A stretch of 30,118 nucleotides of DNA, taken from positions 1 through 30,118 of the IMG/VR virus record IMGVR_UViG_3300042905_004219; one strand, 5' to 3'. Below are positions 3,911 to 30,118 of this stretch, piece by piece. Made by a program: the position numbers and the translations under genes. The notes under the pieces were generated by a model that saw only the letters and a list, made by a program, of their open reading frames with translations, was not told the origin of the DNA and did no database searches. Every line of letters starts with the position of its first letter. The first letter of the stretch is position 1. This DNA comes from a virus.

Positions 3911-4752
3911 CACAAGGTTTTAGAATTAGTAATGGTCAAGCAGTTCGTCCACAATCACCACTCCCATCTCAAACAGTAGCTCAAACAATTTCGAGAACGG
4001 ACGATTCAAAAAATTTTTATTTGCAAGTTAATTATTATGAATTTAATAACCCTATTCCAATAAAAAGATATATTTTTATCAATGCTAATGGGGATTTTCA
4101 GATAGACGAATCACAATCCGCTAACTATGTTTCCTATTCTCCATTATCGAGATCTTCGGAGTTATTTTCATATACAGGAAGCAAATCAAGATCCTTCAAT
4201 CTAACTTTTTCTTATTCAAAATCAGGAATTAAACCTGCATTTACAAACAATTTAAAATCAAGCATAACTCAACCCGCTCTACAAGATCCTAAATCTTTAT
4301 TTTTTAAAGATTTGTCTGAAGCATCGTTAGCAGGTAGACCTTTTGGTCAAATAAAATACACAGGAAGTGAAGATGAGATAATTACTTTTATAGATTCCCA
4401 ATTACAAATAATTAGAAGCTTAACTATAAATAATGCGAAGTCACCAACACAAGGCCCACCTTTGGTAAGAATAAATTTTGGAATATTGTATCAAGATGTT
4501 CCTTGCATTTGCACTGATTATGAAATAAAGCCCATCGCCTCACCAGAAACAAGAATTAATCCTATTTTAGGAACTCCAGAAGCAAACAAAATTTCAATTA
4601 GGCTCACTTTAAAAGAAATAAGAACTGGAGATTACTTAAAAACAGATTTCGCTCAGGCTGGGGGCATCAACCGAGATAATTTAGTTGGATGGGAACAATT
4701 GTTTAATTCAAAAACTGGATCGTTCGATCCTGTTAACCCAATCTATACATAA
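3907..4752 (+). CDS. baseplate hub/tube-initiator protein, CIS_tube-like (T4 gp48/gp54 or Afp7 type)
   Basis: The protein has 281 aa. It is likely part of the central platform that joins the hub to the first tail-tube ring. The region from about residue 70 to 240 follows the layout of the contractile injection system tube-initiator family (Afp7/Pvc7-like): a beta segment RSFNLTFSY, a spaced helix with IITFIDSQLQIIRSL, then a PPLVRINFG-ILYQDVPCIC beta hairpin and a final NKISIRLTLKEI strand. The call rests on pattern and position; I cannot tell gp48, gp54 and Afp7 types apart. Its ATG overlaps the tape measure stop (ATGA), and it is followed within 5 nt by the gp53-like gene, a typical baseplate order. 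Confidence 0.55.
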   Translation: MTQGFRISNGQAVRPQSPLPSQTVAQTISRTDDSKNFYLQVNYYEFNNPIPIKRYIFINANGDFQIDESQSANYVSYSPLSRSSELFSYTGSKSRSFNLTFSYSKSGIKPAFTNNLKSSITQPALQDPKSLFFKDLSEASLAGRPFGQIKYTGSEDEIITFIDSQLQIIRSLTINNAKSPTQGPPLVRINFGILYQDVPCICTDYEIKPIASPETRINPILGTPEANKISIRLTLKEIRTGDYLKTDFAQAGGINRDNLVGWEQLFNSKTGSFDPVNPIYT

Positions 4753-4757
4753 TAGCT

Positions 4758-5054
4758 ATGGAAGTAAAAATATCAAGATACGATAATGGAGTCGTAAAAC
4801 AAATACATAAAACTGCAACAGTAACTACTGTTGTTGGACATCCATATTTTGATTACATCACCCAATTTTCTGATTCCGTTCTTTCTGGAAAAGTAGGATT
4901 TGTTCCTCTTGGGTATGAGCATCGACCTGATTTGATTTCTACTGTATTTTATGGAACTCCCGCATATTGGTGGATTTTGATGTTGGCTAACAATGTTTCA
5001 GATCCTTTTGAAGGATTTAATGTTGGAGATAGAATAGTAATACCTAATTTATGA
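4758..5054 (+). CDS. baseplate wedge protein, gp53/LysM-like
   Basis: The 98-aa protein matches the layout of T4 gp53-type wedge proteins and LysM-like tail proteins. Residues 64-96 contain FYGTPAYWWIL, then ANNVSDPFEGF, then GDRIVIP, the 'yYG..yW.Il..N.i.DPf...G..l.IP' pattern shared by this group. The protein would fasten wedges around the hub. T4 gp53 is about twice as long, so this is a minimal version. Its stop overlaps the next start (ATGA at 5051-5054), indicating translational coupling with the hub gene. No clear Shine-Dalgarno is visible ahead of its ATG. Confidence 0.7.
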   Translation: MEVKISRYDNGVVKQIHKTATVTTVVGHPYFDYITQFSDSVLSGKVGFVPLGYEHRPDLISTVFYGTPAYWWILMLANNVSDPFEGFNVGDRIVIPNL

Positions 5055-24341: not shown

Positions 24342-26894
24342 ATGGCAATAATCGATCCATTAGATCCGTGCTTATTGTTTTATCCGGGTGAATTGCCAGA
24401 GGATGTAGCTAATCGTATTGATGGTGGAGTAATTACGGTTCCAAATGGAACTAGAGCTAACGCGGATCCAATTGATCCTGTGATTTGGGAAGAGCCTCGT
24501 ATACCCCCACGACCGCCAATAGATCCGGGGGAGCCTACTGGACCCGGAGGCCCCGGTGGTCCCGGTGGTCCCGGAGATGATGATGGCCCGGGGGATCCCG
24601 GTGGTCCTGATGGCCCGGGGGATCCCGGTGGTCCTGATGGGCCGGGAGATCCAGAGGGTCCTGATGGGCCGGGAGATCCAGAGGGTCCGGGTGGGCCAAT
24701 AGATGATGGTGGGGATGATGACGGACCCCCAACAGTTATAAAATGGAAATGCGAAACAATTACCCACTATATTGACGGATTTGGTGGGACTGTAACCGTA
24801 GTTAGAAAAGTTTGTACTTCTACTACAGATGCTAACGCCCCATTCAACACATTATCGGAATGTGTAGCCGAATGTCAGTCTGTAACAGTATTAGATGAAG
24901 GGGAAACTCAAACACCAACAGAAACAGAACCAGAACCTCCGGGGGAAGGTGGAAATAACCCTGATGAAAATGATGATGGCCCGGGTGGGGAAATTATAAT
25001 AACCCCCGGGGGGCCTCAAACTCCGATAGAACCAGAGGACCCGGATACTGAATATGATGAGGGGGAAATCACTTACTCCGCAGATGCTGTAGCTACATTA
25101 CCAAATTATTTCCCTACAGTAGACACAACACAAACAACAGAATTTTTGGAGCAAGGCAACCAAACCACAATCTTTGCATCCTTGCAAGCTCCAACTATTA
25201 ACTATTTAATCAGACAACCTCCCGTTGGATCAATCAAAGCGATTAATGAAAAATTAAAAAAACTTAATCCTAACAAAATAAAAGATTCAGTATCTAAAAA
25301 TTTTGCTGATATTATTTATAATTTGGTTGAGCCTGATGGTCGAAGAGTGCCGGATTCTAGAATAAGCACTTCCTTGCAAATGTATTTATTACAAGGAAAA
25401 GCTCGAAAAATAAATACTAGTTATTTACTAAAACTACAAATAAGAGCAATTCTTGGACAAGCAACTACTACCACAAGATTTATAAATTACATTGATTCCA
25501 GATATTCTCCCAACCAAATAAATCCTTTAGTTAATCGTGTGTTGAATATGGGAAGATTGAACGCTACCAGAACAACGCAAAGGTCTATTACTCCAAACAG
25601 CCAAAGAGGAGTTGCTAGAGCATTACAAAGTGCTAAATCTTTGGATTATAGAAGGTATACCGACGCTAAATCAGAGCACTTGAAATTGTGGAACATTCTA
25701 CCTGAAGATATTTATGCACGAATTACGGTTGCGGATCAAGATGGAAATACAAGTAGATTAAATGTTAAAAATGATTTATCCCTCCTAGCCACAGCTAGTG
25801 GAAGTCAACCAATTAGAGTTCCCATAAACAATTACTTATTTAATATTTATGTAGATACTGCATCAGGCACGGTAACTGTTCCCGCAGATTCTGAATTAGA
25901 CAGAGCCGTAACTTTAAATAACAAAGTAGAGCAAGCGTGTTTGTTTGATTCGGGTGTGGAAAAAGAATATGTGTTAAAAGTAACATCTCCGTCTGATTTA
26001 AATATAGAATTGACTTATGATGTTTCTGCACCCCGTCCAAATCATTATGTCTTAATTTTAGAGGCATCTACAATACAAGATGCGGAAGTTAAAAAATCTC
26101 CATTCGTTAGGACATCTCTTGCTAATTACAGATTGGAAACAAATGCATCTACGATTCAAGATGCGCTTAAATTTAGAATTTATCCATGGCAAGTAATGCC
26201 TGTGTATCATGACGATCCATTATTGGCGCATTTTACAACCAGTTCTACTTATCAAGTTGAATTTAATGATTTTAGTTTAGAGGAATTTGGTGATGATATA
26301 AGTGGACCAATATTCATAAGAAGAATACCAAAAGCTATTTTAGTATTACCTACGGACAGATATGATTATTTAATCTACAATGGGCAATCTCGCCTAGATG
26401 ATTGGAATGTAAGATCATTAAATTTTGTTTTAAGTCCTGATCCTAACTATTATGATGTAGGACTTAGGTCTAGTTGGACTAAAATTAATTTAGCATATCC
26501 AAACACAGACATAGAAAATAATATTTCTGAACATGGGATATTTGCAACATACGAAACTTCAGTTCCAATAATAAATAATACTTATGTAAATCAAGTTGAA
26601 CCCACTCGAACAGAAAATGGATTTAGGGTGGCGGTAAAAGTAGCATCTGGATTAAATGATGCTTATAATACTAATAATGGAATTCTATGGTCTGATGTTT
26701 ATTCTAGGTTAACTGAACAACAATATAAGACTCATAAATTAAATATATCCGATAGAATGTTAGAAAAATTAAGAAAAGGGGAAAAGACTGGGTCCCGGTT
26801 AGTTCATGATAAAGGTCAGTTTTTATTAACTAGATTAACTGGATTAAAACAAAATAAAACTAATCCATTCCCAATTTATTTGACTAGAGAATAA
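24342..26894 (+). CDS. tail fibre-like protein with Gly/Pro/Asp tandem repeat and four-cysteine module
   Basis: The protein has 850 aa. Order: a short N-terminal segment (1-60), a Gly/Pro/Asp-rich repeat (66-130), a small cysteine module (133-181; C137, C158, C174, C178), a second Pro/Glu/Gly-rich linker (190-240), then a larger mixed domain (250-850) with a helical part ([15 protein letters not shown]) and a beta-rich C-terminus. The Gly-rich part is collagen-like in composition but does not keep glycine at every third residue, so it is not a strict Gly-X-Y triple helix. The Cys module spacing (C-x20-C-x15-C-x3-C) suggests a metal-bound or disulfide mini-domain. A virion surface role is inferred. 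The GC-rich repeat stands out from the AT-rich surroundings. Confidence 0.6.
24582..24689 (+). repeat. four tandem 27-bp repeats coding D-G-P-G-D-P-(G/E)-G-P
   Basis: There are four in-frame copies at 24582-24608, 24609-24635, 24636-24662 and 24663-24689. Copies 1 and 2 are identical. Copies 3 and 4 are identical except for the last base (CCT against CCG). Copies 2 and 3 differ at several sites, so the array looks like two separate recent duplications. It is followed by a partial GGT GGG CCA unit and preceded by shorter GGT-GGT-CCC units. The segment is a strong local GC island. Confidence 0.95.
26064..26165 (+). repeat. two copies of a 21-bp element, each able to form a 6-bp hairpin
   Basis: The copies at 26064-26084 and 26145-26165 match at 19 of 21 bases and lie 81 bp (27 codons) apart. 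Both code for ASTIQDA. In each, GCATCT and AGATGC form an inverted repeat around an 8-nt loop. They lie within the 850-aa gene; the flanking protein sequence is not repeated. Confidence 0.6.
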
Positions 26895-26895
26895 A

Positions 26896-27348
26896 ATGCC
26901 TAAAATAATAACTGAAAATCAAGTAAATCAAACAGGGGGATATATCCCTGTTCCAACGGTAACAGGAACTGTTTTTTCTGGATTTACTACAGTAATGAAT
27001 GGATTAAGTAGATATACTCATCCTGTACTAGGAGATTGCCAGCCTACAATACCTCCTCCATTTTTTTCAGTTAATGTGGGCGGTGTCCCTATTCATTATG
27101 GATCTGCCCCATTAAATTGTGGGGTTGCTAATGTCGGAATTGGGGAAGTTTATTGTTATGAAAGAGTGCCCGATTCTAGCTTACCTTTATTTTTTATACT
27201 ATTCCCTATTGGTGGGGGTGGTTCAAATTATACTCCACCTTCCCTTGATACTGGAACTCCTCCATATTTGGGTGGAGGGGATGAGGATGATAATACGCAA
27301 GGGGGAGCGGATAACCCTAACTCTGATTATGCCCCAGTCATAAAATAA
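26896..27348 (+). CDS. small protein, PAAR-like spike-tip candidate
   Basis: The protein has 150 aa. Residues 21-90 show a degenerate repeat pattern like PAAR spike-tip proteins: GFTTVMNG then THPVLGD (H42, D47, C48), then SVNVGGVPIHYGS (H67), then LNCG (C75) and GIGEVYCY (C87). PAAR proteins bind one metal by three His and one Cys and cap the spike; here H42, C48, H67, C75 and C87 are candidate ligands, so any site would differ. The C-terminal 50 residues are Gly/Pro/Asp-rich and probably unfolded. It ends the tail block, just before the terminator-like hairpin. The spike gene at 7585-8739 has no PAAR tip of its own, so a separate tip protein would fit. Alternatively it is an unrelated small structural protein. 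Confidence 0.4.
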   Translation: MPKIITENQVNQTGGYIPVPTVTGTVFSGFTTVMNGLSRYTHPVLGDCQPTIPPPFFSVNVGGVPIHYGSAPLNCGVANVGIGEVYCYERVPDSSLPLFFILFPIGGGGSNYTPPSLDTGTPPYLGGGDEDDNTQGGADNPNSDYAPVIK

Positions 27349-27394: not shown

Positions 27395-27430
27395 AGAATA
27401 GGGATGTATTCCCACAAAGGATTTAATATT

Positions 27431-27838
27431 ATGAAACACTTAAATATCTCAGATGAAGCGATGAAGATAATTCTCGAAAACTCAGCTTGGGGCCAGTTTG
27501 GACTCAAAGTTGATGAAGCCAAGCAGCCAATAAACGAAGAAGCCGAAGAGGTTTCTGAAGAGGCTGACGAGCATGTTTGCCCTCTATGCCAATCACACCT
27601 CCAAGAGGCCATAAGTGATGAGGCTTTGATGGAGCATACCGCCAATGTCCTCGAAGCAGTTAATGCTGCTACCCTCAATGAGGAAGAGGAAGAGGAAGAT
27701 GGCGAAAACCTCTCCGAGGAAGATGATGAAGATGAGGATGAAGATGAGGATGAAGATGAAGACCTCGAAGAAGGTAAAATGCCACCTCAGCTAATGAAAG
27801 CAATGAAAAAGAAAAAAGGCATGATGAAGAAGAAGTGA
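27431..27838 (+). CDS. small acidic protein, probable prohead core/internal head protein
   Basis: The protein has 135 aa from ATG 27431, chosen over an in-frame ATG at 27404 because AAGGA (27417-27421) is 9 nt upstream. The N-terminal 16 residues end in I14-L-E16, a (L/I)-x-E motif like T4 prohead protease sites. A CPLC pair (C50, C53) with H56 and H69 may bind zinc. Residues 84-114 are almost all Glu/Asp, and the last 20 are Lys/Met-rich, giving strong charge separation. T4 prohead core proteins such as gp67 are also small and highly acidic, which makes that role plausible but not proven. It is the first gene after the promoter-like box. Confidence 0.55.
   Translation: MKHLNISDEAMKIILENSAWGQFGLKVDEAKQPINEEAEEVSEEADEHVCPLCQSHLQEAISDEALMEHTANVLEAVNAATLNEEEEEEDGENLSEEDDEDEDEDEDEDEDLEEGKMPPQLMKAMKKKKGMMKKK
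27722..27763 (+). repeat. acidic microsatellite, GATGAGGATGAA units
   Basis: Two perfect 12-bp copies lie at 27731-27742 and 27743-27754, flanked by shorter GATGATGAA and GATGAAGAC units, in frame, coding the Asp/Glu run. Such a run can expand or contract by slippage without shifting the frame. Confidence 0.8.
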
Positions 27839-27887: not shown

Positions 27888-28445
27888 ATGGATTCACTAA
27901 ATCGTATATTTAATTCAATTAATGAAGCTAAAAAAGCCAAGGCTAAATCTAAAAAAGGAATGGTGGGCGAAACACCAAAAGGTGCGGCCAATCGGTACGA
28001 CCATGATTCTTTTGGGATGAAGGCTGAATCTTCCCACATGGGCAAGAAAAAGAAGTTAATTGGTAAGCAGGGTAAGTTAGACAGAAACAAAAACGGAAGA
28101 TTGGATGCACAAGACTTTAAAATGATTCGTGGAGAGTCCTCCGAAATCGTAACTGTTCTATCTATTCTAAAAGAAGCCTATCAAGATGAACTTATTTCGG
28201 AAGAGGCATTCTTAGCTATAGCTGACCCAATCATGCGTTCATTGATGGAGGTAACTTTTCCCGATACATTTCAAAAGGAAGACCTAGATGATGCAGAAGA
28301 GGAAGATGCAAAAGCTAAATCTAATGGTCCAAAAAGAGTAAAGAAGGGTCCAAAACCCAAACCACCTTCAGGCACTGCGGGAGATCGTAGAAAAGAAAGA
28401 CACGCAGACGCTTCCGATAAAAGATCAATGAACCCCGGTAAATGA
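27888..28445 (+). CDS. small charged head-region protein with EF-hand-like loop
   Basis: The protein has 185 aa. Residues 1-13 end in I11-N-E13, another (L/I)-x-E motif, and are followed by a Lys/Ala-rich segment. Residues 65-76 form D-R-N-K-N-G-R-L-D-A-Q-D, a calcium-loop pattern (acidic or Asn ligands at 1, 3, 5, Gly at 6, hydrophobic at 8, acidic at 12) of the EF-hand/dockerin kind. Residues 85-120 are helical and acidic; the last 50 are basic and Pro/Lys-rich, ending in MNPGK. AAGG lies 7 nt before the ATG. An internal head protein role is inferred from charge and neighbours. Confidence 0.6.
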   Translation: MDSLNRIFNSINEAKKAKAKSKKGMVGETPKGAANRYDHDSFGMKAESSHMGKKKKLIGKQGKLDRNKNGRLDAQDFKMIRGESSEIVTVLSILKEAYQDELISEEAFLAIADPIMRSLMEVTFPDTFQKEDLDDAEEEDAKAKSNGPKRVKKGPKPKPPSGTAGDRRKERHADASDKRSMNPGK

Positions 28446-28455
28446 GGATAATTAA

Positions 28456-28866
28456 ATGACGAAACAATTTTCTATTGGTGATTTTGCAATGTCACTCATT
28501 GAACAAAATAAAGATGAGTACAAGAAAAGTGTCTCTAATGGATTACCTGTTTCAGTAGCTCCAGATCCTCACGCGCCTGACTTTTCCAAGATACGGGTAG
28601 ACGAAGATACAGTTACAGATATTTTTGCTAAATCCTTTGGTATCAAGAAGAAGGCTGTTGAAAAGAAGCCTGTGGTGGAAAAGCGGGTGCCTACGCGAGT
28701 GGTCAGAGAAAACAAAAAATCTCCTGAACAACTGATAGCTGAATTTGAACAAGTTTTAGTTCAAGCTAGAGGATTGATTCAGGAGATGACCACTTGTGGA
28801 ATGCTTGGCGTTAATATGGCTGGGCCAACAAAAAAGAAAAAATTAAAGAAGAAGTGGAAGTATTGA
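28456..28866 (+). CDS. small charged head-region protein
   Basis: The protein has 136 aa and unknown function. Its first 16 residues end in L14-I-E16, a (L/I)-x-E motif. Residues 25-60 contain a Pro/Asp-rich turn (VAPDPHAPDF), then a Lys-rich helix, a coiled-coil-like segment (PEQLIAEFEQVLVQARGLIQEM) and a very basic tail (KKKKLKKKWKY). GAGGA at 28444-28448 is 7 nt before the ATG. The polarity and basic tail fit the other small proteins of this block. Confidence 0.55.
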   Translation: MTKQFSIGDFAMSLIEQNKDEYKKSVSNGLPVSVAPDPHAPDFSKIRVDEDTVTDIFAKSFGIKKKAVEKKPVVEKRVPTRVVRENKKSPEQLIAEFEQVLVQARGLIQEMTTCGMLGVNMAGPTKKKKLKKKWKY

Positions 28867-28867
28867 T

Positions 28868-29254
28868 ATGAGAATAATTAATTTATTACGAGAATCTCGA
28901 TTTGGGGGAGGAAGAGGTTCAGATACAGGAAGACAATTATTCTCTTCCAAGGAAGGTACTTCCCGTCAAAAAGTAAAATCAACAAAAGGAAGAGTAAGAG
29001 TTTTTAAATCAATATCAAAAGCTTTAGGAGCTTTGGATTATGGATCCATTTTTTCAACTGTAGCTAGTGACAGGCTTTATGTCGTTACTCGTCCTACTTG
29101 GGGTGAAAAAAGTAGAGAACATGGGAACAAAGTAGCAAAGGGATTTGCAGCAGGCACCGCATTTTCACAGATAAAAGGCTACGCAGCTAGAACAATAAAA
29201 AAACATGGTAAGAGCAATGCTGCAAAATTTAAAAAATACAAGGAACACAATTAA
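28868..29254 (+). CDS. small basic head-region protein with possible cleavable N-terminus
   Basis: The 128-aa protein is strongly basic. The first ten residues read MRIINLLRES. L7-R-E9 is a (L/I)-x-E motif followed by Ser, and it recalls the short capsid targeting peptides of T4 internal proteins. The remainder is Gly/Lys/Arg-rich with one beta-like segment (DRLYVVTRPTW) and a Lys-rich end. GGAAG at 28856-28860 is 7 nt upstream. It overlaps the next gene by TAATG. A packaged DNA-binding protein is a plausible role but is inference. Confidence 0.55.
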   Translation: MRIINLLRESRFGGGRGSDTGRQLFSSKEGTSRQKVKSTKGRVRVFKSISKALGALDYGSIFSTVASDRLYVVTRPTWGEKSREHGNKVAKGFAAGTAFSQIKGYAARTIKKHGKSNAAKFKKYKEHN

Positions 29255-29919
29255 TGTCTTTCTTAGATAATATACTTAATAGAGTTCGTTCTGGTGCCAT
29301 TAGAATGGCACAGAGGACTCATCGTCCCCGCACGGAGCCTCCCACTCCTCAAGCTGTTTCAGCAAGATTAAAAAGAGAAAACCCTATTGCATTTAAAGAT
29401 TCAGAATTGAAAGATAAAGGATACGCTGGACTTTCTAATTTAGAAAAAATAAAAATGCGAGATAAAATAAGAAAACAAGGAGATGAAGTGTTTTCTTCTG
29501 GTTCTAGCACTGGAAAAGAAATGTTAGATGCTTTGCGTAGAGGAACTGCCGCATCAAGAGAAACACAAGGTATCACATATGGTGATAGGGACGCTGACAT
29601 TTTAAAAGCTAGAAAAAAAAGACTAAACAGGAAACAAGCTCTTGCACGGGGTAAGGGGGGTGGACCTGATTCCATTCCGGGGGAGGATGATGAACTTCCC
29701 GATCCAAATCGTTTTGGGGCAGGAGTATATGATTCAACTTATTACGGCAGCATAGCAAAATTAATTAGAGAATCTTTCCAATTAAACGAAAAGAAGCTAT
29801 GTGCTAGAGGTAAGTCCGCTGCAAAGAGAAAGTTTTCCGTTTACCCCTCTGCATATGCAAACATGTATGCATCCGCTGTTTGTTCAGGTAAAGTAAAACC
29901 CGGTGGAAAGAAAAAATGA
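29254..29919 (+). CDS. basic head-region protein with C-terminal YPSAYAN module
   Basis: The protein has 221 aa. The N-terminal 150 residues are basic and low in aromatic residues. Residues 170-179 contain LIRES (I171-R-E173) and L177-N-E179, two (L/I)-x-E motifs in a row. They are followed at once by a basic module at 180-221: C183-A-R-G-K, KRKFSVYPSAYANMYASAV, C210, and a Lys-rich end. I recognise this tyrosine-rich YPSAYAN pattern as recurrent in aquatic phage proteins, but its function is unknown to me. Cleavage at E173 or E179 would free a peptide of about 42-48 aa. The stop overlaps the next start (ATGA). Confidence 0.6.
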   Translation: MSFLDNILNRVRSGAIRMAQRTHRPRTEPPTPQAVSARLKRENPIAFKDSELKDKGYAGLSNLEKIKMRDKIRKQGDEVFSSGSSTGKEMLDALRRGTAASRETQGITYGDRDADILKARKKRLNRKQALARGKGGGPDSIPGEDDELPDPNRFGAGVYDSTYYGSIAKLIRESFQLNEKKLCARGKSAAKRKFSVYPSAYANMYASAVCSGKVKPGGKKK

Positions 29920-30118
29920 TCAACGAAGACTTAAGAAAATGGGTTGCCGAAAAATGGGTTGATATCGGAGCACCAAAAAAAGGTGGGGGATTCAAACCAT
30001 GTGGCAGGCAAGAGGGGGAAAAACGCAAGGGATATCCCAAGTGTGTTCCTCTTGCAAAAGCCCATTCCATGTCTAAAGGTCAAAGAAGATCAGCAGTCAA
30101 AAGAAAAAGAGCAGCCGG
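29916..30118 (+). CDS. small basic cysteine-containing protein, truncated by the window end
   Basis: This CDS is partial, with 67 codons plus two bases seen and no stop before the window end. The ATG overlaps the preceding stop (ATGA). The readable part has two tryptophans (KWVAEKWVDI), a Gly-rich turn, C29 in PCGR, C43 in YPKCVP, then a strongly basic stretch (QRRSAVKRKRA). The Cys pair with its flanking Gly/Tyr/Pro could form a metal site or small hairpin. The protein resembles small basic modules I associate with aquatic phages, but I cannot name the family with certainty. Its place after the YPSAYAN protein suggests it is another member of the internal head-protein group. Confidence 0.6.
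   Translation, partial: MINEDLRKWVAEKWVDIGAPKKGGGFKPCGRQEGEKRKGYPKCVPLAKAHSMSKGQRRSAVKRKRAA

Follow-up and report, generated by a model that had tools for sequence, protein, structure and literature searches.

Internal head proteins of phage T4 enter the prohead by means of an N-terminal targeting sequence of approximately ten residues that is subsequently removed by the head protease, providing a precedent for targeting combined with cleavage after Glu (PMC9026906, PMC7697877). Among T-even phages these proteins are diverse, and the targeting sequence is the sole part common to them (PMC3012670). Prohead proteases of phiKZ and SPN3US are likewise described as cutting after x-x-Glu, including in propeptides with several sites, which resembles the arrangement examined here; unlike it, their motif is A/S-x-E, with N-terminal sites reported to serve for propeptide removal, and the available passages of these reports do not describe the release of separate small cargo modules (PMC10052503, PMC5694885). 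Long open reading frames (ORFs) of the T4-GC_119/gp114 type in kyanoviruses (SBM3_00185 of S-BM3, and gp114 of S-RIM8 and syn9) are built from the same modules as the gene cluster described below, namely DUF5872-like, YPSAYA, CW...VPNC and DUF6321 modules, with hydrophobic-x-Glu at several of the borders. They differ from that cluster in their place beside gp16/gp17, which in S-RIM8 leaves approximately 12 kb between them and the protease, and in having YPSAYA modules of subtype B or C.

The DNA analysed here (the window, 30,118 bases in full) is an IMG/VR record, probably a fragment, which carries T4-like genes, including a 527-aa ORF matching gp6/baseplate J proteins. Near its end this DNA of a marine T4-like phage holds a 221-aa ORF whose final 42 residues, the YPSAYAN module, are probably a peptide that is packed into the head and released there by cleavage, as suggested by a mobile unit placed after protease-type sites and by its occurrence elsewhere as separate genes, some of them beside capsid genes. 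The ORF, its parts and its neighbours are as follows, with slashes marking the position that follows each motif:

27404..27838, + strand: head-cluster ORF, acidic, with a Lys-rich end and MKIILE/N near its N-terminus
27888..28445, + strand: head-cluster ORF of 185 aa, beginning MDSLNRIFNSINE/A, with an EF-hand-like stretch below the Pfam cut-off
28456..28866, + strand: head-cluster ORF of 136 aa, with a Lys-rich tail and FAMSLIE/Q at its N-terminus
28868..29254, + strand: head-cluster ORF of 128 aa, basic, beginning MRIINLLRE/S
29254..29919, + strand: fused ORF of 221 aa, comprising N-terminal part, linker and YPSAYAN module; same make-up in three close relatives (L081, L082, L083)
29254..29733, + strand: N-terminal part, residues 1-160, basic; relatives in three contigs only
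29734..29790, + strand: linker STYYGSIAKLIRESFQLNE, residues 161-179, putative internal targeting and cleavage element; kept in L169, L173 and L178
29764..29772, + strand: first candidate cut site, IRE-173 before S; placed by motif position and kept in relatives
29782..29790, + strand: second candidate cut site, LNE-179 before K; placed by motif position and aligned with the module start of free copies
29791..29916, + strand: YPSAYAN module, residues 180-221, type A, PHROG 27331; profile match, mostly free-standing loci, hairpin model
29916..30118, + strand: next ORF, DUF5872-like, beginning MINE/DLRKW, cut by the window end

The original prediction addressed positions 29761-29919, which correspond to residues 170-221 and the stop of the 221-aa ORF, and described two (L/I)-x-E motifs just before a 42-residue module with two cysteines, a YPSAYAN core and a Lys tail. 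Each of these features was confirmed. Exactly two such motifs occur in the ORF (IRE, residues 171-173, and LNE, residues 177-179), where its composition predicts 1.2, and both immediately precede the module; two motifs inside residues 170-180 were obtained in 0.09% of shuffles that preserved the composition of this protein. The module (KKLCARGKSAAKRKFSVYPSAYANMYASAVCSGKVKPGGKKK) contains zero Asp or Glu residues and carries a net charge of +12. By profile search, residues 180-221 matched positions 2-43 of the 50 positions of PHROG 27331 (E=1.3e-22), and on this similarity the module is a member of that family; the profile represents a stand-alone protein of approximately 50 aa, whereas the window copy forms the C-terminal end of a longer ORF. 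The module is predicted to fold as a hairpin of two helices (5-14 and 21-31; mean pLDDT 82, fair confidence), and no relative was found in the PDB by either profile sequence search or fold search, so that structure yields no function. Pfam and NCBIfam profile searches of the whole ORF returned zero matches, and its N-terminal part, probably either a carrier or a further cargo, was also without a match among PHROG profiles. There is no in-frame ATG, GTG or TTG near the module border, making an internal start an unlikely route to the free module. Among the three close relatives, the linker is identical and the module differs by 0-2 substitutions.

Since these relatives are too similar for an informative dN/dS, we instead compared the linker with those of L169, L173 and L178. 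Alignments of the window protein with L169 and L173 were confined to the linker and the residues close to it. After the shared [LM]IRESFQLNE element, a CW...VPNC module follows in L169 and L178 and another stretch in L173, such that the same linker carries three different cargoes, preceded by three unrelated kinds of N-terminal part. Its last ten codons differ from those of the window by 4 synonymous and 0-1 nonsynonymous changes; the linker is, in these alignments, conserved as protein and not as DNA between unrelated flanks. The reverse case was also identified in L243, in which a 90%-identical module follows an unrelated N-terminus ending YYGTQLIE.

Similar elements were found throughout the surrounding gene cluster. 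Of 14 cluster ORFs, picked by us by position and content, 13 contain LxE within the first 30 residues versus 9/22 other ORFs (p=0.002); the 221-aa ORF has zero LxE in this region, and its targeting-like element lies at residues 161-179 instead. Upstream, the window holds a 150-aa ORF with a Gly/Pro/Asp-rich end (26896-27348) where L169 (6104-6394) and L178 (6388-6678) hold a different, PAAR-looking ORF of 96 aa, as well as an 850-aa ORF with a long collagen-like repeat near its N-terminus (24342-26894).

No prohead protease is present in the window fragment itself, which stops approximately 1 kb short of the head genes of L082, a contig 98% identical to it over 9 kb. Beyond the point corresponding to the window end, L082 encodes a DUF5872-like/DUF6321 ORF, a small ORF beginning MNYIQRIHDLLVE/A, a Peptidase_S77 protease (1e-22, 81 bits versus a curated cut-off of 27; PHROG 207, 2e-51), an ORF in the scaffold position without a family match, and gp23 (capsid protein match, 1e-73). 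The first of these is the counterpart of the ORF cut by the window end, and runs on through INLINE/V and IGNLITE/V to DUF6321, while conserved LGEL-HP and SSRG stretches of the protease are also found in kyanovirus proteases. The start of the small ORF (MNYIQRI[HY]DLL[VT]E) is seen again in L166, L167, L170 and L176 on proteins that otherwise differ, and appears to represent one targeting-like start on different cargo. Neighbour ORFs with this start lie upstream of the protease at L166 719-1844, L167 886-1714 and L176 3023-3466.

Almost all type-A modules in IMG/VR are separate small proteins beginning M-[AG]-KLC, with 95 free copies in one search, and the YPSAYA core also occurs in subtype B (KNxPTxPxxW...YPSAYANGWA) and subtype C (DACxxKVKxRY...WPSAYASG). 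Fused copies share ORFs with DUF5872-like, CW...VPNC, DUF6321 and NPWAVC modules; in T4-like phages they are joined to unrelated N-termini, usually after hydrophobic-x-Glu at the start point of the free form. A second, unselected search, through which L188 and L191 re-entered the comparison of free and fused type-A copies, returned 67 free and 9 fused copies. Glu directly precedes GKLC or KLC in 9/9 of the latter, exactly where free copies begin M-AKLC or M-GKLC. P3 in these nine is I, L, V or M, and strict LxE covers only 3/9 sites because V and M are also found there; strict L/I likewise fails at many other sites, which have V, M or F instead. Judged from sequence, the module is a mobile, autonomous unit. 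The expectation that it would be found behind unrelated N-termini was thus borne out, with the addition that it is mostly an entirely free protein. In two contigs (L205, 127 kb, and L199) the type-A module follows a short N-terminus ending CENILSSIDE/KKLC, near the layout of T4 internal proteins; the L205 contig encodes an S77 protease.

To quantify motifs at module borders, we considered modules with at least 20 aa upstream from motif-unselected loci only, deduplicated at 60% upstream identity, counting LxE ending at most six residues before the module against a background of other positions in the same ORFs. A DNA-pattern scan for LxE+KLC gave 35 matches, which served as loci only and were excluded from the counts because the scan preselects the motif. 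Strict LxE was found in 16/22 YPSAYA modules (0.8 expected) and in 45 of the 95 non-redundant cases from all seven module types (2.9 expected), rising to 67/95 with a hydrophobic P3 (6.2 expected), although the significance of these values is overstated, as related sequences were counted as independent. Controls among the same 95 cases were flat, with 0 [LI]xD (1.2 expected) and 2 [LI]xK (6.8 expected). Also enriched was E-x-[LI] (20 versus 2.5 expected), reflecting the many linkers that read ExLxE and suggesting that linkers, besides holding cut sites, are helices rich in Glu.

Conservation of the upstream motif in fused copies, as originally predicted, holds for type A in the Glu before (G)KLC and for unselected type-B copies with at least 20 aa upstream, where hydrophobic-x-E lies within six residues in 14/14 (strict L/I in 12) and Glu occupies position -1 in 14/14. 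The stronger claim that the module always follows (L/I)-x-E fails in several respects: free copies lack a site, V or M can also stand at P3, and four fused type-B copies joined to a DUF5872-like module (L296-L299), from loci without T4-like markers, contain no LxE. Type C fits poorly, with the motif at most six residues upstream in 3/7 fusions, where hydrophobic-x-E within six residues does not go beyond chance. The L296-L299 copies would constitute a natural negative control if those phages lack S77.

Both complete genomes with fused modules, S-BM3 and S-RIM8, encode S77, and no S77 was found in any of the complete genomes with free modules (DSL-LC04, P-SCSP2, HTVC106P and HTVC023P). In IMG/VR, S77 was detected in 7/30 contigs bearing fusions or pattern matches, these contigs being mostly fragments; contigs bearing B, C or DUF6321 modules without S77 count neither way, as gp23 is missing there too. 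The S77 domain sits in frames of 366-443 aa in G020 (L197), G026 (L191), G028 (L210) and G030 (L202), and in frames of 222-252 aa in the others.

The same modules were also identified as separate podovirus genes. In P-SCSP2 (L087), a Prochlorococcus podovirus of the Autographiviridae, separate small ORFs between the scaffold and capsid genes (4058-5036) encode a type-A module (56 aa), an EF-hand-like protein (41 aa), a DUF5872-like protein (86 aa) and a DUF6321-like protein (85 aa), corresponding to the modules of the head cluster in the window and L082. A DUF6321-like ORF adjoins the capsid gene in P-SCSP1l and Jormungand, and in DSL-LC04 a type-B and a DUF6321-like ORF follow shortly after the capsid and cement genes. 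The available parts of the P-SCSP1u structure paper and the P-SSP7 purification paper yielded nothing on these small proteins. Furthermore, gp137 of S-CREM2 has been detected in virions with 4 peptides (PMC10665884), and its sequence ends in DUF6321, which supports a virion location for the neighbouring DUF6321 family, and not for the YPSAYAN module.

Set beside the anatomy of the ORF, the conserved border sites, the swapping of cargo, the nearby protease gene of the almost identical L082, and the occurrence of the same modules as separate podovirus genes, some in the head region, the reading that we favour, and consider reasonably probable, is a T4-type system of head cargo with cleavable targeting linkers, here in the form of multi-module precursors. 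In an aquatic T4-like phage, the 221-aa ORF would encode a precursor from which internal head cargo is made, and its linker would act like a T4 capsid-targeting sequence (CTS) to bring the chain into the prohead core, where the phage's own gp21-type (Peptidase_S77) protease would cut after Glu-173 and/or Glu-179. The 42-residue module would be left free inside the head with the DNA, apart from the N-terminal part; a cut after E179 would make it equivalent to the free-standing protein. Neighbouring genes would follow the same plan, some of them stringing several modules together, and the element for targeting and cleavage would occur internally and more than once. Cleavage of the linker and retention of the module in the virion are inferred, and the module's charge, its position and the T4 analogy suggest that it may bind or condense DNA or be ejected into the host. 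Weighing against this reading are the failures of strict L/I, the weak fit of type C, the site-less L296-L299, the enrichment of E-x-[LI], the counting of related sequences as independent, the LxE-free N-terminus of the ORF itself and a window fragment that does not include the protease.

Compared with T4 IPI, IPII, IPIII and Alt, which are cut by gp21, the window ORF shares a short hydrophobic element ending in LxE before its cargo, and its group shares a gp21-type protease (encoded in L082, approximately 1 kb past the window end), basic cargo (net +12 in 42 residues) and a constant targeting element with variable cargo (PMC9026906, PMC3012670). T4 internal proteins possess an N-terminal propeptide of 10-19 residues ending in a gp21 motif, whereas the element of the window ORF is internal; its neighbours, also unlike the T4 proteins, hold several modules with repeated sites, and the cargo exists as free podovirus genes. 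Pfam, PHROG and PDB sequence searches of the cargo found no T4 internal protein family, although these proteins are themselves hardly conserved (PMC9026906). As the N-terminal propeptide is absent, we do not classify the ORF as a T4 internal protein, though it would work like CTS cargo.

The linker might instead target the fusion into the prohead through binding of an LxE helix to the scaffold or core, with the module remaining attached. The Glu-rich, amphipathic-looking linkers and the enrichment of E-x-[LI] are consistent with such a role, and targeting is separable from processing in T4 IPIII, where Asp at position 10 stops cutting but not targeting (PMC9026906). However, the Glu holds a fixed place relative to the module start, the free-standing protein begins at the same point, and an S77 protease is encoded next door in L082, making permanent attachment unlikely. 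An ordinary gene fusion with a flexible Glu-rich spacer and a functionless motif would account for the site-less fusions L296-L299, and LxE is short; we regard it as very improbable, given 45/95 borders with LxE against 2.9 expected, the flat [LI]xD and [LI]xK controls, and a linker whose protein sequence, unlike its DNA, is kept where the flanks are unrelated.

The precursor could also form part of the prohead core or scaffold, with protease fragments, the module included, cleared from the head and not kept as cargo. According to the available passages on SPN3US, the prohead protease makes several cuts in long head-protein propeptides, and these are for the most part undetectable later in the head (PMC10052503). 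The module, however, is a conserved, independently encoded part with its own gene in phages without S77, and its strong basicity would fit a companion of DNA rather than of the core, so that we attach very little probability to clearance.

Under the favoured reading of cleavable head cargo, the carrier-plus-peptide arrangement first proposed for this ORF is supported in outline and proves wider in scope, comprising several module types, set apart by such sites, in the neighbourhood of a prohead protease gene. An arrangement in which sites recur between exchangeable modules, themselves separate genes in other phages, represents a new form of a known T4 principle; in the open-licence literature, no account of the modules as processed head peptides was found. 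More broadly, we see about an even chance that aquatic T4-like phages use the prohead protease to cut virion peptides of approximately 40-90 residues from polyproteins at targeting linkers, while protease-less phages use separate genes, some beside scaffold and capsid genes, the modules being widespread, unrecognised internal head peptides exchanged between morphotypes. This would provide a testable role for families of aquatic phages (PHROG 27331, DUF6321, DUF5872-like and T4-GC_119), link myovirus precursors with single podovirus genes, and take the T4 principle of targeting plus cleavage beyond a single propeptide in each protein to whole strings of modules. If true, cut sites and packed cargo would be predictable from sequence in many environmental phages.
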